Shown one piece after another: positions 6,156 through 32,832 of a DNA stretch of 64,000 bases. Each line of letters starts with the position of its first letter. Position 1 is the stretch's first letter. Source of the stretch: Candidatus Pelagibacter communis (GTDB lineage Bacteria; Pseudomonadota; Alphaproteobacteria; Pelagibacterales; Pelagibacteraceae). The stretch spans positions 387,679-451,678 of the forward strand of contig NZ_LANA01000001.1 in the NCBI RefSeq assembly GCF_012932795.1, given 5' to 3'. A model generated the notes under the pieces. The model was not told where the DNA came from and made no database searches. It saw only the letters and a list, made by a program, of their open reading frames with translations. The position numbers and the translations under genes are program-made.

Positions 6156-6740
6156 TTATTCAATAAAATAACCATCTTTATGGCTTAAGATAAAATTTTT
6201 GTCCTTAAATTTATCGGTAATTTTTTTTCTAAGCCTATAAATGTGTGTTTCAACTGTGTGCGTTTCTATATCTAATGAATATCTCCAAATATTTTTTTGT
6301 AAATCAGATACACTATGTTTCTTTTTTGCATCACTTAAATATAAAATAATCGCAACTTCTTTTTCAGTTAGTTTCAAACTTAAATCATCCTTAGAAAAAA
6401 ACTTTGAATTTAAATTTAACTCATATCCATTTATATAAATTTTAGATTGATGATTAAATTTTAATTTTATTAATTCAATATTTATTAGTTCTAAAAGTTT
6501 TTTAAAAGGTAGTGGAAAAATACCGATATTGAAAAAATTTTTTTCATCTATATTTTTATTTAATAATTTTGAATTAGATTTCATAACTATTAAGGAATTT
6601 TCTATATTTAAACCAGTATCTTTAATAAAATCTGACTCATTTTCATATTTTATTATCTCAAAAAATAAATTTTCTTTAATCTCATATAAGATTTCATATA
6701 GTGAGTTAAAATTTATTATAAAAACATTTTGTTTAATCAT
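6156..6740 (-). CDS. OmpR/PhoB-type winged-helix regulator with degenerate receiver
   Basis: The C-terminal ~90 residues form an OmpR/PhoB winged helix: LTEKEVAIILYLSD, then the recognition-helix signature ETHTVETHIYRLRKKI and the wing FILSHKDGYFIE. The N-terminal ~100 residues have the size and hydrophobic pattern of a receiver domain (FIINF, SLIVMKS, FPLPFKKLLELIN), but I see neither the acidic cluster and phospho-acceptor Asp nor the usual Lys. It therefore probably works as a phosphorylation-independent DNA-binding protein. It is divergent from the YkuD gene, 14 bp away. Target genes are unknown. Confidence is high for the DNA-binding domain and moderate for the receiver origin. Confidence 0.82.
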   Translation of the reverse strand: MIKQNVFIINFNSLYEILYEIKENLFFEIIKYENESDFIKDTGLNIENSLIVMKSNSKLLNKNIDEKNFFNIGIFPLPFKKLLELINIELIKLKFNHQSKIYINGYELNLNSKFFSKDDLSLKLTEKEVAIILYLSDAKKKHSVSDLQKNIWRYSLDIETHTVETHIYRLRKKITDKFKDKNFILSHKDGYFIE

Positions 6741-13382: not shown

Positions 13383-14374
13383 TTTTAAAATCATTTGAAC
13401 TTAATAAAATAAAATTAAATAAATACAATTTTTATCTTTTTTATGGAGATAATGAGGGCTTAAAAGAAGAAATTATAAAGAATTTATTTGAGAAGAATTA
13501 CCAAGATAAAATAAGTAGATATGAGGAAAAAGAAATCTTAGATAACAAAAGTGATTTTTTTAATGGTGTATTTACAAAATCATTCTTTGATAATGAAAAG
13601 CTTATAATTGTTAATAGAGCTACAGATAAATCAAAAGTCATTATTGAAGAATTAGTTAAAAAAAATCCAAAGGATGTTCTGATTATCTTAAATTCAAAAA
13701 ATCTTGAAAAAAAATCAATTTTACGAAAGTTTTTTGAAAAAGAAAAGTCTATCATTTGTGCACCATGCTACGAAGATAACAATCAAACTTTAAATGCTAT
13801 AATTAATAGTTTTTTTAGAAATAGAAAAATTTCTATTTCTCAACAATTAATAAATATTTTAATTGAGAGAAGTAGAGGTGATAGAAAAAATTTAAATAAT
13901 GAATTAGAAAAAATTAATAATTATTCCTTAAATAAAAAAAACATAACTTTACAAGAAATTACTAAACTAACAAATCTTGCAGATAACTATAGTGCCTCAG
14001 AACTTGTTGATAATTCTCTTGCTAAAAACACTAGAAAAACAGTTACTATTTTAAATGAAAATAAATTTACAGAAGAAGACAATATAATAATTATAAGAAC
14101 TTTGATATCAAAGTTAAAAAGATTATTAAAAATTTGTGAATTTATAGATAATAAAAATAGCATTGTAGAAGCAGTTTCATCTTTTAAGCCACCTATTTTC
14201 TGGAGGGACAAACAAATTGTGACACAACAGTTAAATAATTGGAAAAGAGAAGAATTGAAAGATTTAATTTATAAAAGTAATGAAATTGAACTTTTAATTA
14301 AAAAAAATTCGAGCATAGGTAAAAATATATTATCTGACTTTATAATTAGCAATTCTAAAAAAGCTAATAATTAG
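13379..14374 (+). CDS. holA: DNA polymerase III subunit delta
   Basis: HolA is the clamp-loader delta subunit that opens the beta sliding clamp. At 331 residues it has the typical length, with the N-terminal AAA-like segment (YLFYGDNEGLKEEIIKNLF near 20-40, a degenerate nucleotide-binding region) and the helical lid/collar later (RSRGDRKNLNNELEKI near 164-179). It overlaps lptE by four bases and its 3' end overlaps the convergent parB gene by 11 bp. Sequence conservation in this family is low, so the operon position is an important part of the evidence. Confidence 0.92.
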   Translation: MILKSFELNKIKLNKYNFYLFYGDNEGLKEEIIKNLFEKNYQDKISRYEEKEILDNKSDFFNGVFTKSFFDNEKLIIVNRATDKSKVIIEELVKKNPKDVLIILNSKNLEKKSILRKFFEKEKSIICAPCYEDNNQTLNAIINSFFRNRKISISQQLINILIERSRGDRKNLNNELEKINNYSLNKKNITLQEITKLTNLADNYSASELVDNSLAKNTRKTVTILNENKFTEEDNIIIIRTLISKLKRLLKICEFIDNKNSIVEAVSSFKPPIFWRDKQIVTQQLNNWKREELKDLIYKSNEIELLIKKNSSIGKNILSDFIISNSKKANN

Positions 14375-15212
14375 ATTTTATAATTTCAATAATTTTATTT
14401 AATTGATCTAAATCTTTATATTCTAAGACCAATGAACCTGTATTATTTCTTTTATTTTTAATAGAAACATTGAGCCCAATTTTTTCTACAATCGACAATT
14501 CTAGAGCCTGTATGTTTGGATTATTTGATTTTACATATGATTTTTTTTTTTTTTTAAAAATTTTTACAAAATTTTCAGCTTGTCTTACGGAAAGTTTTTT
14601 TTCTATTATTTTGGATGCAACAAAGTCTGCATTATCTAATCCTACTAATACTTTGGCGTGACCAGGGGTTAATTTATTTGTTTCGATTAATTTTAATACC
14701 CCCTCTGGTAAACCTAGTAATCTTAAAAAATTAGTTATGTGACTTCGGCTTTTTCCTATAAATTTTGCAACTTTTTCTTGGTCGTATGAAAATTCTTTAA
14801 TAAGGCGTTGGTAGCCTCTTGCTTCTTCAACTGCGTTTAAGTCATTTCTTTGAACATTTTCAATAATTGCAAATTCTAATGATTTCAAATCATTAACATC
14901 AGTAATTACAACTGGAACTTCATGTAGTCCTGCTTTTTGTGCTGCTAACCATCTTCTCTCACCAGCGATTATTTCATATTTAGAATTATCTTCCTTGAAT
15001 TTTCGAACAATGATTGGCTGAATAATTCCTCTTTCTTTTATTGAATTTGTTAAATCTTGCAAACTATCTTCATCAAACAGTTTTCTTGGTTGATACCTAT
15101 TGCTCAAAAGGTCACTTATCAAAACTTTATTAATATTTATATCAACTTTAGTTTCTCCTATTAATGATGACAAGCCTCTGCCCAAACCTTTTTTTATTTT
15201 GTTTGCATCCAT
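14364..15212 (-). CDS. parB: Chromosome partitioning protein ParB
   Basis: ParB is the centromere-binding CTPase that loads on parS and spreads, guiding origin segregation with ParA. The start KKGLGRGLSSLIGE is diagnostic. The N-terminal CTP-binding region contains NRYQPRKLFDE and the motif IIAGERRWLAAQ, followed by the helix-turn-helix KFIGKSRSHITNFLRLL. The C-terminal dimerisation part is short. 282 residues is normal. Its ATG overlaps the parA stop (TAATG). A consensus-matching parS lies 1.4 kb upstream inside rsmG. Confidence 0.97.
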   Translation of the reverse strand: MDANKIKKGLGRGLSSLIGETKVDININKVLISDLLSNRYQPRKLFDEDSLQDLTNSIKERGIIQPIIVRKFKEDNSKYEIIAGERRWLAAQKAGLHEVPVVITDVNDLKSLEFAIIENVQRNDLNAVEEARGYQRLIKEFSYDQEKVAKFIGKSRSHITNFLRLLGLPEGVLKLIETNKLTPGHAKVLVGLDNADFVASKIIEKKLSVRQAENFVKIFKKKKKSYVKSNNPNIQALELSIVEKIGLNVSIKNKRNNTGSLVLEYKDLDQLNKIIEIIKSNY

Positions 15213-16006
15213 TACGCGGCACTTCCTATTTTTTGTTCTTGATTAATAAATTCATCTGTAAAACTAAAATACGACTTACTTCCTGGACATGACTTATCAT
15301 AGATTAAAACCGGCATACCATGTGATGGTGCTTCTGATAACCTTACGTTTCTGGGTATGATGGTAATATAAACTTTTTCTTTAAAATAATCTCTAGCTTC
15401 TTTTTCAACTTGAGAAGAAAGTTTGTTTCTTTTGTCATACATGGTCAAAAGAATTCCTCTAATTTTTAATTCTGGATTTAAATTAATTTTTATTCTGTCT
15501 ATAGTTTTTAATAACTGCGTAACTCCTTCTAATGCGAAAAACTCTGCTTGTAATGGCACTACTAAAGAGTTTGAGGAGACTAAGGCCATAACAGTTAACA
15601 AGCTCAGCGATGGTGGACAGTCTATAAGGATATAATCATAAAATCCTTCAGAATCATTTAAATATGCGGTTAATTTAACCTTCAATAAAAAGGCTCTTTC
15701 ATTATCCCCAGCTGTCTCCACTTCTAGCCCAGATAGATCTACATTGGATGATATTAAATCTAGATTCTCTACCTTAGTTTTTTTTATTACATCTGAAATT
15801 GATTTTGTTCCATTCAATACTCCATAAATTGTATCACTAGAATTTTGCATATTAGACAGACCAAGACCTGTTGTGGCATTTCCTTGAGGGTCGAGATCAA
15901 TTACCAAAATTTTTTTTTGTTGTTGTGCCAAGCCTGCAGCAAGATTAATAACGGTTGTTGTTTTCCCCACTCCACCCTTTTGGTTTATTATTGAAATAAT
16001 TTGCAT
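15212..16006 (-). CDS. parA: Chromosome partitioning ATPase ParA
   Basis: ParA is a deviant-Walker ATPase that forms a nucleoid-bound gradient pulling ParB-parS complexes. The deviant Walker A KGGVGKTTT lies at residues 10-18, Walker A' VIDLDPQGNAT near 39-49, and Walker B DYILIDCPPSLSLLT near 122-136. 264 residues matches chromosomal ParA/Soj. It sits seven bases after rsmG in the mnmG-rsmG-parA-parB order typical of bacterial origin regions. Confidence 0.97.
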   Translation of the reverse strand: MQIISIINQKGGVGKTTTVINLAAGLAQQQKKILVIDLDPQGNATTGLGLSNMQNSSDTIYGVLNGTKSISDVIKKTKVENLDLISSNVDLSGLEVETAGDNERAFLLKVKLTAYLNDSEGFYDYILIDCPPSLSLLTVMALVSSNSLVVPLQAEFFALEGVTQLLKTIDRIKINLNPELKIRGILLTMYDKRNKLSSQVEKEARDYFKEKVYITIIPRNVRLSEAPSHGMPVLIYDKSCPGSKSYFSFTDEFINQEQKIGSAA

Positions 16007-16013
16007 TTTAATT

Positions 16014-16655
16014 TTAAATTTTTTTTTTTATATTTTTTATGTTTAATAAAAATGAATTTTCACTGGTAATACTTTTTTTTTTTTCAAAATCAAAATCCCA
16101 AATTTTTAAAGTCTCTTTTAAAATTTTTTCTCCAGTTTTACCCATAAACATAACTACATTTTTATAACTCACAAAATTTTTATAAACCAAATCTAAAACT
16201 ATCGGTAATGGCTTAAAAGCTCTAGATATTATTGTACCTGACTCTAAGTTTTGTGCCTCAAAAATATTCTCTTGTATAACTTTTGCGTTTATTTCTAGGT
16301 CTTTTGATGCTTTTCTTAAAAACCTGCTCTTATGAAAGCTTTTTTCATATAAATGAATTTTTGATTTTTCTTTCTTATTTTTGAGCATAATTGATGTAAT
16401 TATACCTGGAAAACCACCTCCGGATCCAATATCTGTGGTATTTTTGCTATTTAAATCAATAAATTCAATGATTTGTGCTGAATCTATTACGTGGCGATGC
16501 CTGATAACATCGCTTTCTTCAGTTTCTCTGCTTATAATGTTTATCTCTTTATTTTCTTTTTGAACCATAGCAATGAAGGTCTCAAACTGCAACAATGTTT
16601 CACGTGGAACATTTTGGTGTTTTAGTAGGGAATATTTATTTAAAATATCTTCCAT
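16014..16655 (-). CDS. rsmG: 16S rRNA m7G527 methyltransferase RsmG
   Basis: RsmG (GidB) methylates N7 of G527 in 16S rRNA using S-adenosylmethionine. The Rossmann motif is TDIGSGGGFPGIITSIM near residues 74-90, preceded by RHVIDSAQI. The N-terminal NVPRETLL (residues 15-22) is encoded by DNA matching a parS centromere. The protein has 213 residues, the normal size. Its ATG overlaps the mnmG stop by one base. Confidence 0.95.
   Translation of the reverse strand: MEDILNKYSLLKHQNVPRETLLQFETFIAMVQKENKEINIISRETEESDVIRHRHVIDSAQIIEFIDLNSKNTTDIGSGGGFPGIITSIMLKNKKEKSKIHLYEKSFHKSRFLRKASKDLEINAKVIQENIFEAQNLESGTIISRAFKPLPIVLDLVYKNFVSYKNVVMFMGKTGEKILKETLKIWDFDFEKKKSITSENSFLLNIKNIKKKI
16596..16611. promoter_or_regulatory. 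parS: parS centromere site inside rsmG
   Basis: Read on the minus strand the 16 bases are TGTTCCACGTGAAACA, which fit the widely used bacterial consensus TGTTNCACGTGAAACA at every position and form a near-perfect palindrome centred on CACGTG. The site is in frame within rsmG and encodes Val-Pro-Arg-Glu-Thr. It lies 1.4 kb from the parB start and about 7.3 kb from the putative oriC, a typical position for the primary ParB loading site. Binding itself is inferred from the match. Confidence 0.9.
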
Positions 16656-18526
16656 TAAGCTATAAGCTTAATAGACTTTCTTTTCACATGTGACAACAAA
16701 ATATATACAGCTGCTGGGGTAATTCCATCAATTCTGAGGGCTTGACCCATAGTTTTAGGTTTTATTTTTTTAAATTTAGCTTTTACCTCATTTGAGAGAC
16801 CAGAAAGCTCATCATAATCAACTTTATCAGGTATTATCAAGTTTTCATCTCTTTTAAACGCTAAAATATCGGCCTTTTGTTTTTTAAGATAACCTCTGTA
16901 GTGTGCATTTATTTCTATTTGCTCATCTATTTTTTTATCGAAAAAAGGTATATCAGGCCAAATTTCTCTAATTTTAATCATATTAACACCTTTGTGGGCT
17001 AATATTTCATGAGATTTTCTTAAAACACCATCTTTAGCAATTTTTATATTGAAACCATTTACTTTTGTTGGAGATATTGATGATTCTAGCATTTTTTTTG
17101 ATATGATGGATAATTTACTATTTTTATCTTTAAATAAAACCTCTCTATTTTTGGATATTAATCCTAAATAAATGCCCTTGCTTGTTAATCTTTGATCTGC
17201 ATTATCAGCCCTCAAGCTTAATCTATATTCAGCTCTTGAAGTAAACATCCTATAAGGCTCTGCAACTCCTTTGGTAACTAAATCATCTATCATGACTCCT
17301 ATATAAGCGTCTGATCTGTCTAGTATAAAAGGTTCTTCTTTTTTAAATGATAAAGCAGCATTAATTCCGGCTATCAAGCCTTGAGCTGCAGCTTCCTCGT
17401 ATCCAGTAGTTCCATTTATCTGTCCAGCTAAATACAAATTAGGAATTTTTTTAGTTTCAAGAGTTAAAAACAGTTCTCTGGGATCTACATAGTCATATTC
17501 AATAGCATAGCCGGGCCTAATTATTTTTACATTTTCTAAACCATTGATATTGTTACATATTTCTTGCTGTATATCACTAGGTAAGGACGTTGAAATCCCA
17601 TTGGGGTAAACTGTATGATCATTTAGACCTTCAGGCTCTAAATATATCTGATGTCGCTCTTTCTCGGCAAACTTTACTATCTTATCCTCTATTGAAGGAC
17701 AGTATCGTGGTCCTACACCCTGAATACTCCCTGAGTACATGGCGCTACTTTTTAAATTTTTTTGAATTATTTTATGAACCTTATCATTCGTGTAAGTCAT
17801 TCGACATGAGACTTGTTTATTATAATTTTTTTTGGTTAGGAAAGAAAAAAAATAAGGATCGTCATCTGCAAATTGTTCTTCTAAATTATCATACTTAATT
17901 GTTCGAGCATCCAACCTAGGTGGTGTTCCTGTTTTAAGTCTTCCAATTTTGAAATCATATTTTGCAAGTTGTTCACTTAAACCTGTTGAAGGTTTCTCTT
18001 CAAACCTTCCAGCTGGCGTTTTTTTATCACCAATATGTATCAATCCATTCAAGAAAGTTCCGGTTGTTAAAATTAACTTATTGCAATTGATTTTTTTTCC
18101 TGATTTTGTTTCGAAGCCAGTTATAACGTTTTTATCAAAAATAAACTTAATAACTGGATCAGAAAAAACTGTTAAATTACAGTAATTTAAAACTTTTTCT
18201 TGCATAAACTTACGGTATAGTGATCTATCTGATTGTGTTCTTGGACCCTGAACAGCGGGTCCTCTACTTCTATTTAATAACCTAAATTGTATACCAGACT
18301 TATCTGCAACCTCACCCATTACACCGTCTAAGGCATCTATCTCTCTAACTAGATGACCTTTACCAAGACCACCTATTGCTGGATTGCAAGACATCTCCCC
18401 TATGGTCTCTATTTTGTGAGTAAAAAGTGCGGTATTAACTCCGAGACGTGCAGACGCAGTTGCAGCCTCACAACCTGCATGGCCTCCACCAATTACTATT
18501 ACGTCAAATGACAAATCGTTTTTCAT
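16655..18526 (-). CDS. mnmG: tRNA uridine 5-carboxymethylaminomethyl modification enzyme MnmG
   Basis: MnmG (GidA) is the FAD subunit of the MnmE-MnmG complex that installs cmnm5U at wobble uridine 34 of several tRNAs. The dinucleotide-binding motif [12 protein letters not shown] lies at residues 11-22. [17 protein letters not shown] and [12 protein letters not shown] are family signatures, and the C-terminal [21 protein letters not shown] is the tRNA/MnmE-interaction tail. 623 residues is normal. The partner mnmE lies 166 bp upstream on the same strand; the 166-bp gap probably contains a promoter. Confidence 0.97.
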
Positions 18527-18692
18527 AATTTAAATTTATAACTGATTAGAATATTTACAAGTAGGCAGTATTTTTATAATGGTGATATTTTAAGTTGATA
18601 TATGTTAATAATTTGAATATTTAATAGACGAATTAGCTATATATTCCAACAAAAACAGTCCAAAATGTCTTAAAAACCCACTAAAATAGAGA

Positions 18693-20024
18693 TTATTTTC
18701 CAATACAAAAATCGTTGAAAATACTGTCTAATATCTCTTCAACATCGACTTTGCCAACAATCATTCCTAGATTTCTGGTAGCTAATCTCAAATCTTCAGC
18801 AGCTTTATCGAAATCATCAACTTCATTTTTTTCATTAAAACTTTTAAGATGATTGAGACATTGCTTAAGATGCTGTCTGTGTCTTTCTCTAGTAATTAAA
18901 ATGTTATCATTTTTTATGAATTTATTTTTTAGGTTTTTTTTAATTTTTAAAATTAACTGATCTATATTTAAATTTTCTTTAATAGAAATTAATACATGGT
19001 TTAATTTTTTTATCTCAGGATCAATATCCTCCTCTAAAAGGTCTAATTTATTTATAACTAAAATTGCATTTTGATCCAACAAACCCTTCAAAACATCACT
19101 AATTACTAGGTTTTTAGCATCAACAACAATAAGCTTTAAATCTGCTTCATCTGCCCTATTTAAAGATAATTTAATACCTTTTTTCTCAATTTCACTTTTA
19201 GACTCTCTTATACCGGCCGTATCAGAAACAATAACTGGGTAACCGTCAATATTTAGGTGTGTTTCTATTACATCTCTTGTGGTTCCTGCAATTTCTGAAA
19301 CTATTGCAGCTTCCCTATTAGACAAACAATTTAATAAACTAGACTTACCAGCATTTGTCGGTCCAAGAATTGTTATTTTAAACCCTTCTCTAATTCTTTC
19401 TCCAACTTTTTGATCATCTAAAATTTTTTCTATATTTTGTAAAACATAGTTAGAGTTTTTTTTAATCTCTTTTAAAATATCATCTGGTAAATCTTCATCT
19501 GGGAAATCTATCTTGGCTTCAACATTGGATAAAATTTTTAAAAGTTTTCCTCTGAGCTCATTAAATTTATCAGCTGATTTTCCACTCATAATCTTAATTG
19601 CTTGTTGTCTTTGGATTTCGGTTTCTGCAGAAATTAAATCAGCAATACTTTCTGCCTTGAGTAAATTTATTTTTCCATTTTGAAATGCCAACCTTGTAAA
19701 TTCGCCTGGTTCTGCCATACGACAATTTTCAATCTTTGAAATAGAGGCATGCAGTGCATCAATTACTGCTTTACTACCATGTACATGAATTTCTGCCATA
19801 TCCTCGCCTGTATAGCTCTCTGGGCCAGGAAACCATAATATTATTCCCTCATCTATCAGCTCAGAAGAGTTGATTTTATTGATCTTTTTCAATGTCGCGA
19901 TTCTAGGCTCTGGAATTGTCCCATTAGTTAACAATTTTATCACTTTTTTTGTTTCTACACCCGAAACTCTAATAATTGCTATCCCAGATATACCTGGGCC
20001 CGTTGAAAGAGCAAAAATTGTCAT
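18693..20024 (-). CDS. mnmE: tRNA modification GTPase MnmE
   Basis: MnmE (TrmE) is the GTPase partner of MnmG in wobble-uridine modification. The N-terminal formyl-THF-binding domain includes RVSGVET and the GEFTRLAFQNGKINL region. The G domain is inserted in the helical domain with P-loop GPTNAGKSSLLN (about 222-233), DTAGIRES and NKLD. The protein ends in CIGK, the conserved C-terminal Cys motif. 443 residues is usual. It stands between rho and mnmG in the leftward gene train leaving the putative origin. Confidence 0.97.
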   Translation of the reverse strand: MTIFALSTGPGISGIAIIRVSGVETKKVIKLLTNGTIPEPRIATLKKINKINSSELIDEGIILWFPGPESYTGEDMAEIHVHGSKAVIDALHASISKIENCRMAEPGEFTRLAFQNGKINLLKAESIADLISAETEIQRQQAIKIMSGKSADKFNELRGKLLKILSNVEAKIDFPDEDLPDDILKEIKKNSNYVLQNIEKILDDQKVGERIREGFKITILGPTNAGKSSLLNCLSNREAAIVSEIAGTTRDVIETHLNIDGYPVIVSDTAGIRESKSEIEKKGIKLSLNRADEADLKLIVVDAKNLVISDVLKGLLDQNAILVINKLDLLEEDIDPEIKKLNHVLISIKENLNIDQLILKIKKNLKNKFIKNDNILITRERHRQHLKQCLNHLKSFNEKNEVDDFDKAAEDLRLATRNLGMIVGKVDVEEILDSIFNDFCIGK

Positions 20025-20094
20025 GAAGTATTATAGCTTCTATTTTGTGGGTCTGTAAAACTTTAAATTAACAATTTGGGAAGTTGGCTAATAT

Positions 20095-21363
20095 TTATAC
20101 TGGCTTATTCATGGAGTTAAAGAAATCTGTATTACTTTTTGTTTCTTTAAGTTTTGAATTAATAAATTCTATGGCATCCATGGTTCCCATTGGACCAATA
20201 ATTCTTCTAAGAACATTCATCTTTGAAAGATCATCTTTATTAAAAAGAAGTTCTTCTCTTCTTGTTCCAGATTTTGTAATATCAATAGCTGGATATATTC
20301 TTTTCTCTGCAATTTTTCTATCAAGAACTGTTTCACTATTACCCGTTCCTTTAAATTCTTCAAAAATTACTTCATCCATTCTAGATCCTGTATCAATCAA
20401 TGCAGTTGAGATTATTGTTAAAGATCCGCCTTCTTCAATATTTCTAGCAGCACCAAAAAATCTTTTGGGTCTTTGCAATGCATTAGCATCAACACCGCCT
20501 GTTAAAACTTTTCCAGAGCTAGGTATCACGGCATTATAGGCCCTACCCAATCTTGTGATTGAGTCCAACAAAATCACAACATCTTTTTTATGTTCAGTTA
20601 ACCTTTTTGCTTTTTCAATAACCATTTCAGCTACAGCTACGTGTCTTGAAGCCGGCTCATCGAATGTAGAACTGATAACCTCGCCTTTAACAGTTCTTTG
20701 CATGTCAGTTACTTCTTCGGGCCTTTCGTCTATCAATAAGACTATTAAATAGCTTTGGGGATAATTTTTTGCAATTGAGTTTGCAATACTCTGTAATATC
20801 ATTGTTTTACCTGCTTTTGGGGGAGAGATAATTATTGATCTCTGACCTTTTCCAATTGGACTTACAAGATCTATTAACCTTGGGGTTAAATCTATTTTTT
20901 TTTCAATTTTTGTCGATTCTATCTCCATCACCATTTGTTTGTTTGGATACAATGGAGTTAAATTGTCAAAAGCAATTTTATGACGAGCTTTTTCTGGCTC
21001 TTCAAAGTTTATCTTACTCACCTCTAATAATGCAAAATATCTTTCGCCATCTTTTGGCGCTCTAACAGGACCTTCAACTGTATCTCCTGTTCTTAAACCA
21101 AATTTTCTAATTTGACTTGGACTTACATAAATATCATCGGGACCTGGTAAATAATTTGATTCCATTGCTCTTAGGAAACCAAAACCATCCTGGAGTAACT
21201 GCAACACACCAGCCCCTGTAATTTCTTCTTTTTCTGCAACTTTTTTTAGTATTGCAAATAATATTTCTTGCTTTCTTAGTGTACTAGCATTTTCAATTCC
21301 AAGCTCTTCAGCTTGTGTGATTAATTGTTCAGATGATTTTAACTTAAGTTCTTGTATGTTCAT
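20095..21363 (-). CDS. rho: Transcription termination factor Rho
   Basis: Rho is the hexameric RNA-dependent ATPase helicase that terminates untranslated transcripts. The N-terminal helix bundle is followed by the cold-shock-like primary RNA-binding domain ([22 protein letters not shown], in part, near 59-80). The Walker A is SPPKAGKTM near 179-187, with Walker B and Q/R loops in [16 protein letters not shown] and the C-terminal half. 422 residues is standard. The leader is very odd: no Shine-Dalgarno is visible and a C10 run ends two bases before the ATG. Confidence 0.97.
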
Positions 21364-21365
21364 TT

Positions 21366-21375
21366 GGGGGGGGGG
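21366..21375 (-). promoter_or_regulatory. C10 homopolymer in the rho leader
   Basis: The plus strand has ten consecutive G, so the rho mRNA carries ten consecutive C followed by AA and the AUG. Such a run is strikingly out of place in this A+T-rich sequence, and it occupies the position where a ribosome binding site would lie. Poly(C) is the classical high-affinity ligand of the primary RNA-binding site of Rho, so a role in autoregulation is plausible. That role is inference. Confidence 0.6.
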
Positions 21376-21428
21376 TTAAATATTATTAAGATAAGATTAA
21401 TATATATACTCTTTTGAGTAATTCAAGT

Positions 21429-21863
21429 CTAGATAGGTTTAAAAACAACAATAAAAACAATCAAAATAAGCAATATTGTTGGTACTTCATTAATTATTCT
21501 AAAAAACTTAGATGACTTGGTGTTTTGATCAAATTCAAAATCACTGAGAAGCCTTGATAAATAAAAATGATATAAGGTTAATAAGACAACCAACAACAAT
21601 TTCACCTTGATCCAAACTGCAGACAGAACCTCCAAGCCTAGTGAGGAGATTAAAATTAAGCCAAAAACCCAAGATAAAAGCATCGCTGGAGTCATGATAT
21701 AAAAATACAATTTTCTTTCCATGGTTTTAAATATTGAAGATGAGTTTTCATTCTTTATGTTTTCAACATGGTAAACAAAAATTCTTGGTAAATATAAAAG
21801 GCCTGCCATCCAGGAAATTATTGCAATTAAATGTAGGCTCTTAAATAATAGATAGCTATTCAT
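21429..21863 (-). CDS. hemJ: Protoporphyrinogen IX oxidase HemJ
   Basis: HemJ is the inner-membrane protoporphyrinogen oxidase used by many alphaproteobacteria in place of HemG or HemY. The 144-residue protein has about four hydrophobic membrane segments. Its opening SLHLIAIISWMAGLLYLPRIFVYH contains the conserved His of the first helix and W-x-A-G-L-x-Y-L-P-R-x-x-V-Y-H; KLLLVVLLTLYHFYLSR lies later. It overlaps hemH by 8 bp, and hemE precedes, so the last steps of haem synthesis are encoded together. Confidence 0.88.
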   Translation of the reverse strand: MNSYLLFKSLHLIAIISWMAGLLYLPRIFVYHVENIKNENSSSIFKTMERKLYFYIMTPAMLLSWVFGLILISSLGLEVLSAVWIKVKLLLVVLLTLYHFYLSRLLSDFEFDQNTKSSKFFRIINEVPTILLILIVFIVVFKPI

Positions 21864-22890
21864 AATTTAAACATGGACATTTTTTAAAATTAGATGGACA
21901 TTGCATCTTTGGTGGATAAAGATTTTCACTAATTTTATATTCATTTTTTTTAATTATTAATTCTGACATTGCTTTAATAAAATCTTCATTAATACCAAGC
22001 GCTGGAACTCTTGTATAATTTTTACATCCATTAGCGTCTGCTATTTCTTTATATTCTATATCAAGTTCAACAAGGGTTTCTGAGTGTTCGGAGACAAACG
22101 CGATAGGAACTAAAACAATGTGTTTACCAATCTTTGAATTTTCAATGATAATGTCTTCTGTTGATGGTCCTATCCATTTTAGCGGGCCGACTCGACTTTG
22201 ATAACTCAAAACCCAATCTAAATTTTCGTCATTTAAACTCTCAACTATTTTTTTAACCGACTGTTCTACTTGCCATTGATAAGGGTCTCCTTTTTCAATA
22301 TTTTTTTCAGGTAAACCATGTGCAGAAAATATTAACTTAAAATTTTTAAGATCTTTTATTTTTTTTATTATCTCTTTTCTGTGTGCGTTAATAAAATTTG
22401 AGTCTGTTGGATAACAGCAGATTGTGCTTGTCCTAACTTGGTAATTATTTTTTTTACAAACATCTTTCCATTCTTTAATTGAAGACCCTGACGTTGCGGC
22501 AGAATATTGGGGATAAAGAGGCATTAAAATAACTTCGTTTGGGTCATATAACTGAACATCTTTTATCACATCTTTGGCTCTTGGATTCCAACACCTCATT
22601 ACGATATAGCATTTGTATTCATCCTCTTCCTGAGTCTGGTTTAATTCAATTTCTAAAGCACCAGACTGTTCTTCAGTTAATTTTAGTATGGGTGATGATC
22701 CACCAAGTTCAGCATATATTTTTTTAGCAACTGGGGCCCTTCTATTGGAGATTAGTTTAGCTAGTGGATATCTTAAAAAAGTTGGTAAATTCAAAATTGC
22801 AGGGTCATTAAATAAATTAAATAGAAAAGGCTCAACACTTTCCATTTTATCGGGTCCTCCAAGGTTAAATAAAATAATTGCTTTTTTCAT
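21856..22890 (-). CDS. hemH: Ferrochelatase
   Basis: HemH inserts Fe2+ into protoporphyrin IX, the final step of protohaem synthesis. Visible features are NLGGPDKMESVEPFLFNLF near residues 9-27, the catalytic His in LIFSAHGLPEKNIEKGDPY near 190-208, and SYQSRVGPLKWIGPSTEDII with VPIAFVSEHSETLVELD. 344 residues matches the family. A Cys-rich C-terminus (MQCPSNFKKCPCLN) could hold a [2Fe-2S] cluster, as in some proteobacterial ferrochelatases, but that is not certain. It begins directly after hemE. Confidence 0.95.
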   Translation of the reverse strand: MKKAIILFNLGGPDKMESVEPFLFNLFNDPAILNLPTFLRYPLAKLISNRRAPVAKKIYAELGGSSPILKLTEEQSGALEIELNQTQEEDEYKCYIVMRCWNPRAKDVIKDVQLYDPNEVILMPLYPQYSAATSGSSIKEWKDVCKKNNYQVRTSTICCYPTDSNFINAHRKEIIKKIKDLKNFKLIFSAHGLPEKNIEKGDPYQWQVEQSVKKIVESLNDENLDWVLSYQSRVGPLKWIGPSTEDIIIENSKIGKHIVLVPIAFVSEHSETLVELDIEYKEIADANGCKNYTRVPALGINEDFIKAMSELIIKKNEYKISENLYPPKMQCPSNFKKCPCLNYE

Positions 22891-23892
22891 TTAGTAATCT
22901 TTTACTATTTTAACTAAGTAATCAACCATGTCGGGTTTGGTTTCTGGTAAAACCCCGTGCCCTAAATTAAAGATATATGGATGATCTTTAAATATTTCTA
23001 GATATTTTATTGCCTCTTTTTTTAAATTTTCTTTATCGGTTAATAATATTTTTGGATCAAGCCCTCCTTGAACAGGTATATTAATTTTTTTACATATAGA
23101 TATCGGATTTACATCATAGTCAATATTGACAACATCCGGCTTGACTATATCACAATAATTTATGTAGTCTTTTAATCCTCTTGGAAAACAAATTACTGGT
23201 ATGTTTAATGATTTTACATAATCTACTAAATTTAAAGTTGGGATATATATATAATTTGGTAAATCTTTTTCTTCAAGTAGTCCGGCCCAACTATCAAAAA
23301 TTTGAATCACGGTTGCACCATTTTTAATTTGTTGATCAATGTGTAACTTTAAGAATTTTTCTAATATTATTAAAACTCTATTTATCAAAAACTCGTCTTT
23401 AAAAAAATTCTTTATTAAGTGTTTTTTAGGTGAATGTTTGTTAATCATATAAACTAATATTGTCCACGGTGCTCCAACAAACCCTATTAAGTTTTTATTT
23501 TTAATTAAATTATTTTCACTTACTTTTTTAATCGATTTATAAACTGGATATAATTTTTCTATAAAATCAATTTCATCAACTTTAGAAATTATATCCAAAT
23601 CTAACAGCCCTAATTGTGGACCAAAATCTTTTTTAAATTCTACCTTTTGATTTAATCCATAAGGAATCATTAAAATATCTGAAAATATTATTGCTGCGTC
23701 TAAATTAAATCTTCTTAAAGGTTGTAAGGTAATTTCTGATGATAAGTTTTCATTTAAACATAGATTTATAAAGTTTGGATTTAATTTTCTAATTTCCCTA
23801 AACTCTGGAAGATATCTACCTGCTTGTCTCATTAACCATATTGGAGTATTTGTTGTTTTTTTATTTATTATAGTTTCTTGGATTGGTGTCAT
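22891..23892 (-). CDS. hemE: Uroporphyrinogen decarboxylase
   Basis: HemE decarboxylates uroporphyrinogen III to coproporphyrinogen III. The signature PIWLMRQAGRYLPEFREIR near residues 17-35 is the N-terminal family motif, and GFVGAPWTILVYMI lies near 137-150. It ends with FNLGHGVLPETKPDMVDYLV. The 333 residues are typical. It is transcribed leftward, first in hemE-hemH-hemJ, with its start adjoining the putative oriC; hemE beside the origin is a well-known alphaproteobacterial arrangement. Confidence 0.96.
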   Translation of the reverse strand: MTPIQETIINKKTTNTPIWLMRQAGRYLPEFREIRKLNPNFINLCLNENLSSEITLQPLRRFNLDAAIIFSDILMIPYGLNQKVEFKKDFGPQLGLLDLDIISKVDEIDFIEKLYPVYKSIKKVSENNLIKNKNLIGFVGAPWTILVYMINKHSPKKHLIKNFFKDEFLINRVLIILEKFLKLHIDQQIKNGATVIQIFDSWAGLLEEKDLPNYIYIPTLNLVDYVKSLNIPVICFPRGLKDYINYCDIVKPDVVNIDYDVNPISICKKINIPVQGGLDPKILLTDKENLKKEAIKYLEIFKDHPYIFNLGHGVLPETKPDMVDYLVKIVKDY

Positions 23893-23934
23893 ATTAATAA
23901 GTAAATATTTAATTATAGTATTAGTTATATAGTA

Positions 23935-23943
23935 TGTGAATAA
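23935..23943 (-). promoter_or_regulatory. DnaA box (TTATTCACA)
   Basis: The minus strand reads TTATTCACA, fitting the relaxed consensus TTWTNCACA at all positions and differing from TTATCCACA by one base. It is the best of three boxes in the putative origin. Confidence 0.65.
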
Positions 23944-23956
23944 TGGTAATTAAAAA

Positions 23957-23965
23957 TTTTACACA
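23957..23965 (+). promoter_or_regulatory. DnaA box (TTTTACACA)
   Basis: The plus strand reads TTTTACACA, matching TTWTNCACA throughout. It is 13 bases from the previous box and in the opposite orientation. Confidence 0.55.
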
Positions 23966-23967
23966 TA

Positions 23968-23976
23968 TTATACACG
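23968..23976 (+). promoter_or_regulatory. Weak DnaA box (TTATACACG)
   Basis: TTATACACG matches TTWTNCACA in eight of nine positions and lies two bases after the preceding box, in the same orientation. Clustering raises its credibility. Confidence 0.45.
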
Positions 23977-24059
23977 ATTTATTAACAAGTAATATTTTAT
24001 AAAATAAGCACTTAATCTTTAAATTTAGGCTCTATTTAGTTTTATTGTATAAAATGTAT

Positions 24060-24084
24060 ATTAATAACTCACATGTTTATTAAT
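24060..24084. repeat. Inverted repeat in the putative origin
   Basis: ATTAATAA (24060-24067) and TTATTAAT (24077-24084) are perfect inverted arms around a nine-base centre containing the palindrome ACATGT. Its position between the DnaA boxes and the PPDK regulator gene suggests a protein-binding site or a promoter operator. A/T-only arms reduce its significance. Confidence 0.4.
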
Positions 24085-24176
24085 GTTTATAAAAAAGAGG
24101 TTTTACAGAAAAAAAAAAATAGTGAGAAAATTATAAATAATTTTAGAAATAATACGGAATCGTTAACACTTTATAC

Positions 24177-25004
24177 ATGAGTAATTCATACCAAATATAT
24201 CTAATATCAGACTCTACAGGAGAAACACTTGATAGAGTGTTTCTTGCTATTAAGGCTCAATTTAAAAATATCGAATACGATATTAAGTCTTATTTTTTTA
24301 CCAGAACAGAAAATCAGGTAATAAAAATTCTTGAAGAGGCAAAAAAAAATGAAAATTCTATAATTTTATACACCATTGTCGACAGTAGCCTTGCTAAATT
24401 TTTAGCAAACAAAAGTGATGAAAAAAAAATTCCCTGTTTTGGAGTATTGGGTAATTTAATTCTCAGTTTTTCAAAACTATTAAATCAACAAGCGTCACAT
24501 GTTCCGAGCGGGCAACACGCCCTTAACGAAGAATATTATGAAAGAATTGAAGCGATTCAATTTACAATGAATCATGATGATGGAAATATGGTTGATGAAT
24601 TGGAAAAATCAGATTTAATATTGTTAGGCGTTAGCAGAACTAGCAAAACTCCAACCTCCATTTATCTTGCCAACAAAGGTTTTAAAACTTCAAATATTCC
24701 ATTAATTAATGACAAATCAATACCAGAGAGCTTAAAAAAAAATCCGACAATGGCTTGTGTTGTTGGTTTAACAACTGAAGCAGAAAGGTTGGTTGATATA
24801 AGAAAAAATAGAATGATGACTCTAAAAGAAAGAGAAAATACGAGTTATACAGATATACAAAAAATAAAAGAAGAGGTTGAAAGGGCAAAAAAAACTTTTA
24901 TGAAATACAAATGGCCAACTATCGATGTTACTAGAAAATCTGTTGAAGAAGTTGCTGCATCAATAATAAAAATACACGAAATATATAAAAATAATGATCA
25001 ATAA
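24177..25004 (+). CDS. Pyruvate, phosphate/water dikinase regulatory protein (PPSR family, DUF299)
   Basis: A bifunctional ADP-dependent kinase/phosphorylase that inactivates and reactivates pyruvate phosphate dikinase or PEP synthetase. The opening IYLISDSTGETLDRV and the nucleotide-binding loop LLGVSRTSKTPTSIYLANKG (about 147-166) are diagnostic, as is GLTTEAERLVDIRKNRM. The 275 residues match. It is the first gene to the right of the putative oriC, as in Caulobacter. It overlaps maf by 11 bp. Whether the target is PPDK or PEPS cannot be told here. Confidence 0.92.
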   Translation: MSNSYQIYLISDSTGETLDRVFLAIKAQFKNIEYDIKSYFFTRTENQVIKILEEAKKNENSIILYTIVDSSLAKFLANKSDEKKIPCFGVLGNLILSFSKLLNQQASHVPSGQHALNEEYYERIEAIQFTMNHDDGNMVDELEKSDLILLGVSRTSKTPTSIYLANKGFKTSNIPLINDKSIPESLKKNPTMACVVGLTTEAERLVDIRKNRMMTLKERENTSYTDIQKIKEEVERAKKTFMKYKWPTIDVTRKSVEEVAASIIKIHEIYKNNDQ

Positions 25005-25581
25005 AATAATACTTGCTTCAAAGAGTGGTGTTAGAAAAAAGATTTTAGAAGAAAACCAAATAAGATGTCTTGTGGAGCCTTCGAATGTTGATGAAGATAG
25101 TGTTAAAGATAGCCTATTAAAGATGAATGCAACACCAGAAATTATCTCTAAAAATTTGGCCGAACTTAAGGCAAACAAGATAAGTCAAAGAAGACATGAC
25201 CACTTAGTTTTGGGAGCAGATAGTGTTATCGATCTAAAAGGTAAAATAATTTCAAAACCAAACAACAGAAAAGAAGCACTAGAAATACTTCTTGATTTAA
25301 ATGGACAAACGCACCATCTAATAAGCTCAGTTTGCATATCTCAAAATGGCTTAATGGTTTGGAATTGTACGGATAAAGCATCTTTAACTATGAAACAAAT
25401 GAAAGAAGAGGAACTTGTTAATTATTTAGCTAAAATAAACGATGAAACATTATATGCTTACAACGTATATCAAATTGAAGGCGAAGGCAGATCTTTATTT
25501 GCTAATATAGAAGGTGATGAAGATACCATAATGGGTTTACCGGTTAAAAAAATTAAAGAATATTTAAGCAACTATAAATGA
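24994..25581 (+). CDS. maf: Maf-like nucleoside triphosphate pyrophosphatase
   Basis: Maf proteins hydrolyse non-canonical or canonical NTPs to NMP and pyrophosphate. The N-terminal motif is LASKSGVRKKIL, the nucleotide contact region is LVLGADSVIDLKGKIISKP near residues 70-88, and YNVYQIEGEG with GLPVKKIKEYL ends the fold. 195 residues is normal. It overlaps the preceding gene by 11 bp and aroE by 4 bp, forming a compact operon from the origin outward. Nucleotide specificity is not determined. Confidence 0.9.
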   Translation: MINKIILASKSGVRKKILEENQIRCLVEPSNVDEDSVKDSLLKMNATPEIISKNLAELKANKISQRRHDHLVLGADSVIDLKGKIISKPNNRKEALEILLDLNGQTHHLISSVCISQNGLMVWNCTDKASLTMKQMKEEELVNYLAKINDETLYAYNVYQIEGEGRSLFANIEGDEDTIMGLPVKKIKEYLSNYK

Positions 25582-26411
25582 AAAAATATTTAGTTATAGG
25601 AAATCCAATCGAGCACTCTCTATCTCCTTTAATACATAATTTTTGGATGAAGAAATATTGCTTAGTAGATAGTGTTTATGAAAAAAGAAAAGTAGAAGAA
25701 AAAGAATTAAAAAATATAATTAAAGAGATAAGAGAAGATGAAATATTTGGTGTGAACGTTACTGTACCATTTAAAAAGTTAATTATCCCTTACTTGGATG
25801 AGTTAGACTTTAGTGCTAAAGAAACTCAATCTGTAAATACTCTTTTTAAAATTAAAAATAAGATTATTGGGCATAACACAGACAGCGCTGGTTTTGGGGA
25901 CACTATAAAAAAACTTTATTTTCATACCAACAACTCCTCTAAGCTACCTCTCGAGGATAAACTTATTTTTATTATTGGAGCCGGTGGGGTTACCGCTTCC
26001 ATAATTCATGCACTCAAACTTCAGGGAGCTAACAAAATTACCTTAAGCAACAGAACAAAAGAAAAATCCCACGAATTAAAGAAATTATTTCCCAAAATAG
26101 AAGTGTTGGATTGGGGTAAAAGACCTACGATTTGTGATGTTATAATTAATACTACTAGCATTGGATTAAATAAAAATGAAGAAATAAATATAGACTTTAG
26201 TGATTACAATAAAAATTCTCATAAAAAAACTTTATTTTATGATTTAATTTACAACCCAAAAGAAACTAATTTTTTAAAGAAAGCAAAGTTAAGGGGAAAC
26301 AAAACAATGAATGGTAAAATGATGTTTTTGAATCAAGCAAAATATGCATTTAATATTTGGACAAACATAATGCCAAAAATTGATGATGACATAAAAAAAT
26401 TATTAGACTGA
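25578..26411 (+). CDS. aroE: Shikimate dehydrogenase
   Basis: AroE reduces 3-dehydroshikimate with NADPH in the aromatic amino-acid pathway. The shikimate-binding NPIEHSLSPLIHNFW near residues 8-22, the catalytic Lys in VNVTVPFKKLIIPY near 57-70, and the HNTDSAGFG motif are all present, with the Rossmann motif GAGGVTASIIHAL near 134-146. 277 residues is typical. ATGA overlaps join it to both neighbours. Confidence 0.95.
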   Translation: MKKYLVIGNPIEHSLSPLIHNFWMKKYCLVDSVYEKRKVEEKELKNIIKEIREDEIFGVNVTVPFKKLIIPYLDELDFSAKETQSVNTLFKIKNKIIGHNTDSAGFGDTIKKLYFHTNNSSKLPLEDKLIFIIGAGGVTASIIHALKLQGANKITLSNRTKEKSHELKKLFPKIEVLDWGKRPTICDVIINTTSIGLNKNEEINIDFSDYNKNSHKKTLFYDLIYNPKETNFLKKAKLRGNKTMNGKMMFLNQAKYAFNIWTNIMPKIDDDIKKLLD

Positions 26412-26980
26412 TGATTAAAATTGGAATCCTAGGAGACATTGGATCAGGTAAAAGCTATGTAGCAAAGAATTTTGGGTGTCCAGTATTTAATGCCGATCTT
26501 GAAGTTAGTAAATTATATAAAAAAGATAAAAAAATTTTCAATAAACTAAAAAAAATTTTACCTGGATATATTTTTTCTTTTCCCATTAATAAAAAAGAAA
26601 TTGCAAATGCTATTTTGGCAAATAAGTCTAATCTAAAAAAAATTGTTAAAATTGTTCATTTTGAAATTAAAAAAAAAATGAATATTTTTCTAAATAAAAA
26701 CAGGAACAAGAAAATTGTAATTTTAGATATTCCACTCTTATTAGAAAAAAGAATTAATAAAAAAAATGATATTTTGATATTTGTTCAATCTAAGAGACAA
26801 GACATTCTGAAAAGATTAAAAAAAAGAAAAAATTATAATATAGCACTTTTAAATAAATTTAAAAATATTCAACTACCACTAGATTATAAAAAGAAAAAAT
26901 CTCAATTCGTTATTAAGAATAATTTTACAAAAAAATCTGTTAAAAGAAATATTATAAATATTTTGAAAAAAATTTTATAG
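26411..26980 (+). CDS. coaE: Dephospho-CoA kinase
   Basis: CoaE phosphorylates dephospho-CoA, the last step of coenzyme A synthesis. The P-loop GILGDIGSGKSYVAKNF lies at residues 5-21 with NADLEVSKLY near 28-37. VVILDIPLLLEKRI corresponds to the conserved D-x-P-L-L-x-E motif. The usual I-x-H-P segment reads IVHFEI, with Phe in place of Pro. The protein is very Lys rich (189 residues). It overlaps aroE by one base and is followed by dnaQ. Confidence 0.9.
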   Translation: MIKIGILGDIGSGKSYVAKNFGCPVFNADLEVSKLYKKDKKIFNKLKKILPGYIFSFPINKKEIANAILANKSNLKKIVKIVHFEIKKKMNIFLNKNRNKKIVILDIPLLLEKRINKKNDILIFVQSKRQDILKRLKKRKNYNIALLNKFKNIQLPLDYKKKKSQFVIKNNFTKKSVKRNIINILKKIL

Positions 26981-26981
26981 A

Positions 26982-27653
26982 ATGAGAGAAGTCATACTAG
27001 ATACAGAAACAACAGGATTATCCGTTAGCGATGGACATAGAATTGTTGAAATTGCTTGTATTGAGTTAGATGATTTAATTCCTACTCAAAATAGGTTTCA
27101 TTGTTATCTCAATCCAGAAAGAAAAGTTTCTGAAAAAGCGCTCGAAGTCCATGGTTATACAGATGAATTTTTATCTACTCAAAAAAAATTTTTGGAAGTG
27201 GCTGATGAGTTTTTAAATTTTATAAAAAATAAAAGATTGGTAATTCATAACGCTGCGTTTGATTTGTCACATCTGAATAATGAATTAACGTTGGTGGGAA
27301 AGAAAAAATTAAATAAAGAAAATGTTCTAGATACGCTAACATTGGCCAGGGATAAATTTCCTGGTTCACCAACTAGTCTTGATGCTTTGTGCAAAAGATA
27401 TCGAGTAGATAATACTAAGAGGAGTAAGCACACCGCTCTCATTGACTGTGACCTATTGGCTAAAGTTTATATTAATCTTTTGGGTCAAAAAGAACCTACA
27501 CTAAATTTTAAAAATGAAGATAATGAAAAAATAATAATTAATTCAAATAAAAAAAATCAATATTATAAAAAAGTTATTAAACCAACAGAAGAAGAATTAA
27601 AACTCCATAAAGATTATTTAAAAAATAACTTAAAGAAAAATTTTTTTAATTAG
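26982..27653 (+). CDS. dnaQ: DNA polymerase III epsilon subunit (3'-5' exonuclease)
   Basis: DnaQ is the proofreading exonuclease of the replicase. Exo I is LDTETTGL (about residues 6-13) with the metal-binding Asp and Glu, Exo II is VIHNAAFDLSHLN near 87-99, and Exo III is HTALIDCDLLAKVY near 151-164. 223 residues is normal. The C-terminal tail is probably the alpha-subunit binding part. Its stop overlaps the convergent secB gene by 8 bp. The gene closes the rightward origin operon. Confidence 0.95.
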   Translation: MREVILDTETTGLSVSDGHRIVEIACIELDDLIPTQNRFHCYLNPERKVSEKALEVHGYTDEFLSTQKKFLEVADEFLNFIKNKRLVIHNAAFDLSHLNNELTLVGKKKLNKENVLDTLTLARDKFPGSPTSLDALCKRYRVDNTKRSKHTALIDCDLLAKVYINLLGQKEPTLNFKNEDNEKIIINSNKKNQYYKKVIKPTEEELKLHKDYLKNNLKKNFFN

Positions 27654-32205: not shown

Positions 32206-32832
32206 ATGAATGTCACGATTGTTGACTATAATTCAGGAAATATCAGCTCTGTAATAAATTCCTTTAAGGAAGTTGCTAAAGATAAAGTTAATATTGAAGT
32301 AACTTCAGATTTAACAAAGATTAAATCAAGTGATAAGGTAGTATTGCCAGGACAGGGATCATTTAAGAGCTGCGTTGATGCTTTAAATAGCATTAGTGGA
32401 TTAATTGACACTCTAAACGAATTTGCAATCAATCATAAAAAACCTCTTCTTGGAATTTGTGTTGGCTTACAGATGTTTGCAGATACTGGTTATGAGGAAA
32501 TTGAAACAAAAGGTCTTGGTTGGATTCCAGGCAAAGTCTCAAAGCTTGATAACAAAAATGGAAAATATAAACTTCCACACATTGGTTGGAATGAAATAAA
32601 TATTATTAAAGACAGCAAGATTTTTCAAGGTATAGAAAATAATTCACATATGTATTTTGTACACAGTTATGAATTTATCCCAGTGGATAAAAATGTAATT
32701 TCAGCAACCACAGACTATTCATCAAATATTGTCTGCTCTGTAGAGAAAGAGAACATCTTCGGAACCCAATTCCATCCTGAAAAGAGTGATAAAATGGGCT
32801 TACAAATTATTCGAAATTTTATTAGTTTATAA
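32206..32832 (+). CDS. hisH: Imidazole glycerol phosphate synthase, glutaminase subunit HisH
   Basis: HisH hydrolyses glutamine and channels ammonia to HisF. VDYNSGNISSVINSF opens the fold. The nucleophile elbow is LLGICVGLQMFAD (about 80-92), and the His and Glu of the triad are in FGTQFHPEKSDKMG near the end. 208 residues is typical. It starts five bases after hisB and ends two bases before hisA. Confidence 0.97.
   Translation: MNVTIVDYNSGNISSVINSFKEVAKDKVNIEVTSDLTKIKSSDKVVLPGQGSFKSCVDALNSISGLIDTLNEFAINHKKPLLGICVGLQMFADTGYEEIETKGLGWIPGKVSKLDNKNGKYKLPHIGWNEINIIKDSKIFQGIENNSHMYFVHSYEFIPVDKNVISATTDYSSNIVCSVEKENIFGTQFHPEKSDKMGLQIIRNFISL

Follow-up and report, generated by a model that had tools for sequence, protein, structure and literature searches.

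Origins of the hemE type have been delimited by the boundary genes hemE and COG1806 (DUF299) on the two sides of a gap of 200-1000 bp, with an IHF site as a usual, non-obligatory criterion (PMC1914354, as far as its available text goes). Cori of Caulobacter crescentus and the ori of Rickettsia prowazekii, both of the hemE/COG1806/RP001 type, display these boundary genes together with an A/T-rich gap and DnaA boxes. The Wolbachia ori (hemE/COG1253) has kept hemE and changed the other boundary, and almost every Wolbachia origin studied is reported to carry CtrA sites (same source, available text). A further point of comparison is the basal origin unwinding system (BUS) of B. subtilis and many other bacteria, which consists of a DnaA box, a spacer and DnaA-trios; the criterion in the available part of PMC8287927 is three or more trios no further than 16 bp from the box.

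The locus described here belongs to an alphaproteobacterium that was assigned to SAR11/Pelagibacterales by its gene content, size and composition. SAR11 bacteria count among the most numerous cells of the ocean, and no description of their oriC was found in the literature searched, which included few subscription papers and had DoriC outside its scope, where a prediction may exist. Metagenomic studies have used origin-to-terminus coverage to estimate their replication (PMC9589681, available part), and a sequence-defined origin would offer a fixed anchor for such estimates.

The gap between hemE and DUF299 displayed the same boundary genes, A/T richness and DnaA boxes as the origins of Caulobacter and Rickettsia (PMC1914354, available text). 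Its length lies within the published range, its box cluster is denser than elsewhere in the 36% of the genome scanned, its A/T content exceeds that of the genome, and it coincides roughly with a shift in GC skew. It differs from these two origins in that it holds neither a CtrA site nor an IHF consensus, and no CtrA protein scored above cut-off in 58 genomes; neither the TTAA-N7-TTAA sites nor the CtrA protein of a CtrA-controlled Cori was found. The gap is very probably an ordinary hemE-type alphaproteobacterial oriC without CtrA sites and not a new kind of system. It would be a naturally occurring example of the hemE type from a group in which searches for CtrA found none.

Gene layout and DnaA boxes

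The window, i.e. the whole stretch of 64 kb that was analysed (G000:C1:387679-451678), comes from a genome of 1.28 Mb in three contigs that is 99% complete. Its relevant features are collected in Table 1. The preliminary description had pointed to A/T-rich DNA, to genes leaving the site in both directions, and to hemE and a DUF299-maf-aroE-coaE-dnaQ row as flanks, all of which was borne out. The GC content of the gap lies below the range of 21.5-36.9% found across 2-kb windows of the 64-kb window. The main ORFs run on the minus strand from 14364 to 23892 and on the plus strand from 24177 to 27653, two TTG-started plus ORFs (102 and 151 aa) that overlie longer minus genes being set aside in this count. 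Both hemE and DUF299 scored above curated cut-offs, and maf, aroE, coaE and dnaQ were assigned by reading. An Rfam scan of the window at the gathering threshold returned a single tRNA and nothing else.

Table 1. Features of the hemE/DUF299 gap and its surroundings (positions in the window)
Feature	Position	Strand	Remarks
Proposed origin region (oriC)	23893..24176		284-bp hemE/DUF299 divergent gap, 16.9% GC
hemE, left flank	22891..23892	-	TIGR01464, 308.6 bits (cut-off 302.95)
DUF299 / PPDK-PEP synthase regulator gene, right flank	24177..25004	+	NF003742, 301.3 bits (cut-off 225)
Proposed unwinding side, hemE to box 1	23893..23934		42 bp, 10% GC, least stable of the gap's four parts (nearest-neighbour energy)
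DnaA-trio-like repeat TAG-TAT-TAG (3'-GAT-5' type)	23916..23924	+	10 bp from box 1; definition from PMC8287927 (available part)
DnaA box 1, TTATTCACA	23935..23943	-	zero mismatches to TTATNCACA
DnaA-like box 2, TTTTACACA	23957..23965	+	one mismatch to TTATNCACA
DnaA-like box 3, TTATACACG	23968..23976	+	one mismatch to TTATNCACA
DnaA-like box 4, TTATTAACA	23979..23987	+	one mismatch to TTATNCACA
DnaA-like box 5, TTATAAACA	24084..24092	-	one mismatch to TTATNCACA
Right-hand box position (TCGTTAACA)	24160..24168	+	degenerate in this species; box position in relatives
parB and parA	14364..16006	-	parB: TIGR00180, 199.9 bits (cut-off 58.45); parA: by reading and sub-cut-off ParA-family matches
parS-like site TGTTTCACGTGGAACA	16596..16611 (G000:C1:404274-404289)		the genome's only one with at most one mismatch; adjoins parAB, 7.3 kb from the gap

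Three DnaA-box-like sites within 42 bp had been noticed beforehand and were confirmed. Four sites with at most one mismatch to TTATNCACA were found within 53 bp, and the strict TTATNCACA form is present just once in the gap. When the 284-bp gap was shuffled with its dinucleotide composition preserved, three boxes within 42 bp arose in 2 out of 2000 shuffles and four within 53 bp in none out of 2000. Across the 464 kb scanned (the window and 20 further stretches, together 36% of the 1.28 Mb), four boxes in 53 bp were encountered nowhere else, and three consecutive boxes in 11-bp register only here. Across the whole window, one-mismatch boxes amounted to 87 against 105.8 expected, i.e. they were not enriched, and their clustering alone is special.

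The only other triple in these 464 kb was located at 32640-32690 of the window, where three one-mismatch DnaA-like sites are found within 53 bp of one another, inside an ORF read as hisH. As a locator on its own, TTATCCACA was uninformative, with 202 and 225 genome-wide sites at no more than one mismatch against 251 and 249 for the control.

Conservation across the family

The hemE gene was found in 109 out of 118 genomes of the family, and 70 hemE loci were fetched (30 + 40). A divergent hemE/DUF299 gap of 261-297 bp was present in 67 of these (30/30 and 37/40). Together, the 67 gaps contained 192 copies of TTATNNACA against 22.1 expected, an approximately ninefold excess in related species whose figures are not independent trials. 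By box form, TTATNAACA was counted 145 times (9.6 expected) and TTATNCACA 32 times (2.0 expected). The excess was retained among 43 mutually less similar gaps, with 112 copies of TTATNNACA against 13.9 expected. Origin boxes of the family are mostly TTATTAACA-like and display A at position 6, where the standard box has C.

The arrangement of the boxes also recurred. Box 1 was taken to be the best-matching site within a range of 32 bp, which makes the following counts approximate: it displayed at most one mismatch to TTATNNACA in 46/67 gaps, and boxes with at most one mismatch were found at offsets of +22 (31/67), +33 (29/67) and +44 (24/67) from it. At least two boxes in the 11-bp register were present in 35/67 gaps (1.4 expected) and at least three in 12/67 (0.03 expected), as judged from 60 shuffles and, again, in related species. 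Towards the other end of the gap, a minus-strand box was located at -93 from the DUF299 start in 20/67 gaps, and a box with at most one mismatch preceded this start at -17 in 31/67 and at -14 in 24/67 relatives.

Trio-like repeats beside box 1

The 50-bp window of the proposed unwinding side belongs to the top 0.14% in instability within the 64-kb window, with eight other non-overlapping places being less stable. Like BUS, the gap has a box, here TTATTCACA, next to trio-like TA[GT] repeats that run in the 3'-GAT-5' sense, with a spacer of 10 bp; unwinding at this place is a prediction. In B. subtilis, the trio repeat is situated on the strand opposite to the box, and the same layout is found here relative to the strand of TTATTCACA. 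The repeat comprises just three units, the minimal length asked for in BUS, and a run of three TA[GT] units beside box 1 was not detected in 38/67 relatives.

In 29/67 gaps, the 30 bp adjoining box 1 on the hemE side contained at least three consecutive TA[GT] units (6.0 in shuffled sequences, maximum 14), and in 20/67 at least four (0.9, maximum 5). No comparable concentration at three units was seen in the other parts or on the other strand of the 67 gaps. A looser.A. trio pattern was barely above chance, with at least four units in 27/67 (19.5 expected) and at least five in 14/67 (6.7 expected). All these counts are approximate because box 1 was placed by score and was visibly off in several gaps (e.g. 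L096, L099, L114).

Turnover of the flanking genes

The three hemE loci without the gap (L110-L112) were all from genus g8, and their hemE matches were only 31% identical. DUF299 was present in five out of six genomes of this genus, and rho was encountered to the left of DUF299 in all five loci (rho was recognised visually, through its similarity to the rho ORF of the window). The TTATAAACA box occupied the same place in 5/5 of these rho loci, and a trio-like run of at least three units was found in 4/5. The location of hemE away from the origin in g8, with matches elsewhere that are 31-37% identical, suggests that the gene was lost and that a copy of foreign or paralogous origin took its place.

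In two genomes, hemE appeared as two adjoining or overlapping matches (G030:C1:358209-359179 and G078:C5:73513-74509). In G078, one of the two contains stops; a frameshift, decay or an assembly error may be responsible.

The second (sister) family of the order displayed the reverse situation. DUF299 was found in none of its 25 genomes, while hemE was present in 11 of the 12 genomes searched and was followed by maf ~259-275 bp to its right in 11/11 loci. Runs of at least three units were detected in these gaps, of T[AT]G in 9/11 and of TA[GT] in 5/11. Exact TTATNNACA was found on either strand in 5/11 and was missing from 6/11. As an example, the left end of the gap in L164 reads TAGTAGTAGTAGTTGTGCCTGTG. 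Retention of hemE with a changed second boundary is also known from Wolbachia (PMC1914354, available text), nearly all of whose examined origins differ from the gap of the window by their reported CtrA sites.

The hemH match of the sister family was only 25-28% identical in L164, L165, L169 and L170, against 48-52% in the other seven loci, as if it had been replaced.

Skew, coverage and parS

Skew was sampled in five genomes (G000, G005, G008, G020 and G050), each represented by twenty 20-kb stretches that cover about one third of it. A two-switch model was fitted on a 5-kb grid, with the contig order C1/C2 assumed for G000, and gave best intervals 30-80 kb wide. In the above order of genomes, the nearest interval point was situated at 1.7, 0.15, 1.4, 15.6 and 27.9 kb from the site for strand-corrected GC3 skew, at 1.7, 15, 94, 15.6 and 27.9 kb for raw GC skew, and at 238, 15, 154, 15.6 and 182 kb for gene direction. 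A GC-skew minimum elsewhere in the genome had been named in advance as a counter-indication to an origin at this place; strand-corrected skew showed no such displacement, its best interval reaching to within 28 kb of the site in 5/5 genomes, and that of raw skew did so in 4/5. The gene-direction switch was near the site in 2/5 genomes. With the switch fixed at no more than 25 kb from the site, strand-corrected and raw GC skew explained 29-69% of the variance, the fit of G050 being poor (R2 about 0.3). The coincidence with the skew switch is thus a rough one, since these fits place the switch to tens of kilobases only; it is observed directly, as are the sequence elements of the gap and their conservation.

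Inside the window, cumulative skew reached its minimum near 50 kb, with a further low near 62 kb, and the gap formed a local minimum only. This curve was rejected as an origin locator because it follows gene direction.

Metagenomic coverage takes a single-origin V shape in SAR11 (PMC9589681, available part), at coordinates that could not be matched to the gap. Sites resembling parS were hardly commoner than in the control when up to three mismatches were allowed (12 against 8).

Origin assignment and alternatives

The hemE/DUF299 gap is very probably the chromosome origin (oriC) of this SAR11-type alphaproteobacterium, because the box cluster, its register, the trio-like repeats and the gap length are conserved and because the element survives where either flanking gene is missing. 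From the arrangement of these elements, the following course of events is predicted. DnaA would bind box 1 and the adjoining array, whose boxes are 11 bp apart, or about one helical turn. A DnaA filament would then grow leftwards from box 1 onto the trio-like repeats in the A/T-rich DNA beside hemE, where the duplex would open and the helicase would be loaded before forks depart both ways. New origin copies might be separated by ParAB acting at the parS-like site 7.3 kb away.

It is very unlikely that the gap is instead a conserved divergent promoter or regulatory region of hemE and DUF299, with boxes for DnaA-controlled transcription and an origin elsewhere nearby. Promoters must be present, as both genes diverge from the gap; many relatives have a box position 14-17 bp ahead of the DUF299 start, and the limited resolution of the skew leaves room for a neighbouring origin. 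A promoter, however, should not outlive the gene on each side in turn. The element abuts rho in 5/5 g8 loci and maf in 11/11 sister-family loci, with boxes or trio-like repeats persisting, and this succession of neighbours argues against a mere promoter, as does a length held at 261-297 bp in 67 loci.

An origin at dnaA-dnaN, as in many bacteria, is highly improbable here. The DNA-binding domain of dnaA was located at C1:348631, adjacent to dnaN, and its distance of 63 kb from the gap is not far past the resolution of the skew fits; but the 384 bp upstream of dnaA contain one TTATNNACA match and no box cluster, and the skew between dnaA and the gap remains below zero at C1:365-385 kb. That the box cluster is an accident of a composition of 83% A/T is scarcely credible. 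One-mismatch boxes are indeed common in the genome (87 in the window, yet below expectation), but the cluster was reproduced in 0/2000 shuffles, is unique in 464 kb, and its boxes recur in register across species.

Read as an origin, the element persists where one or the other of the genes by which it is located has gone. Of potential use to specialists are a DnaA-box/trio core that survives the loss of boundary genes and a box whose centre is mostly A, where C is standard.

Regulators of the proposed origin

DnaA is canonical (TIGR00362, 476.9 bits against 343.9). The RDHTT motif of its DNA-binding domain is kept as in solved relatives. CtrA model NF045991 was above cut-off in 0/58 genomes (best 148 bits against 350) and in 1/14 controls, with weaker matches in all 58, as is usual for response regulators; the model is named for Rhodobacterales, and a very divergent CtrA could escape it. 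None of the three OmpR-type regulators of the genome reached the cut-off of this model in a comparison with NCBIfam. The available part of a 2010 survey likewise lists no ctrA for Pelagibacter (PMC2877005). Model DUF1153, which we take to represent SciP, was found in 0/58 genomes, with Caulobacter as the sole control above cut-off.

The preliminary description had reported no TTAA-N7-TTAA pair, which agrees with the count of zero in the gap, and had derived from this a simplified origin control. That proposal held in part: CtrA and SciP were not found, whereas GcrA was detected in 55/58 genomes and an N6/N4 methyltransferase, a candidate CcrM, in 58/58, and a CcrM homologue in SAR11 was reported in a 2014 study (PMC3973325, available part). 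The Pfam GcrA model used is not perfectly specific, being above cut-off also in the control Sulfolobus acidocaldarius, which is unexpected for an alphaproteobacterial cell-cycle regulator.

No IHF-like site was found in the gap with either WATCAANNNNTTR or WATCAN5WTR. Among the 67 gaps of relatives, WATCAANNNNTTR was enriched (17 sites in 16 gaps, 5.1 expected).

The 67 gaps contained two GANTC sites where 9.7 were expected, a count as low being reached in 1/200 shuffles, and one of the two is at 24157-24161 in the gap of the window; GANTC was also scarce in the sampled genome (704 against 1224 by mononucleotide expectation). TTAA-N7-TTAA was counted 31 times in the 67 gaps against 17.9 expected, which was reached in 1/200 shuffles. 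It is conceivable, and on balance unlikely, that DnaA took over former overlapping CtrA/DnaA sites after the loss of CtrA. The timing of the origin would then depend on DnaA only, CcrM and GcrA would have been retained to serve other genes, and the origin would avoid GANTC. This reading was suggested because a TTAACA recurring at 11-bp intervals contains TTAA-N7-TTAA, which has the spacing known from CtrA sites, and it is weakened because just 5/31 of the occurrences consist of two boxes in register, 19 holding at least one box half. With such a fraction, the excess was also rejected as a pure by-product of boxes in register, DnaA boxes accounting for part of it only.

A protein encoded at 6156-6740 of the window on the minus strand (L034:1489-2073) displayed an OmpR-type DNA-binding domain with no receiver among its NCBIfam matches, the best stretches starting after residue 73. 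It is possibly an orphan regulator, encoded 17 kb from the proposed origin.
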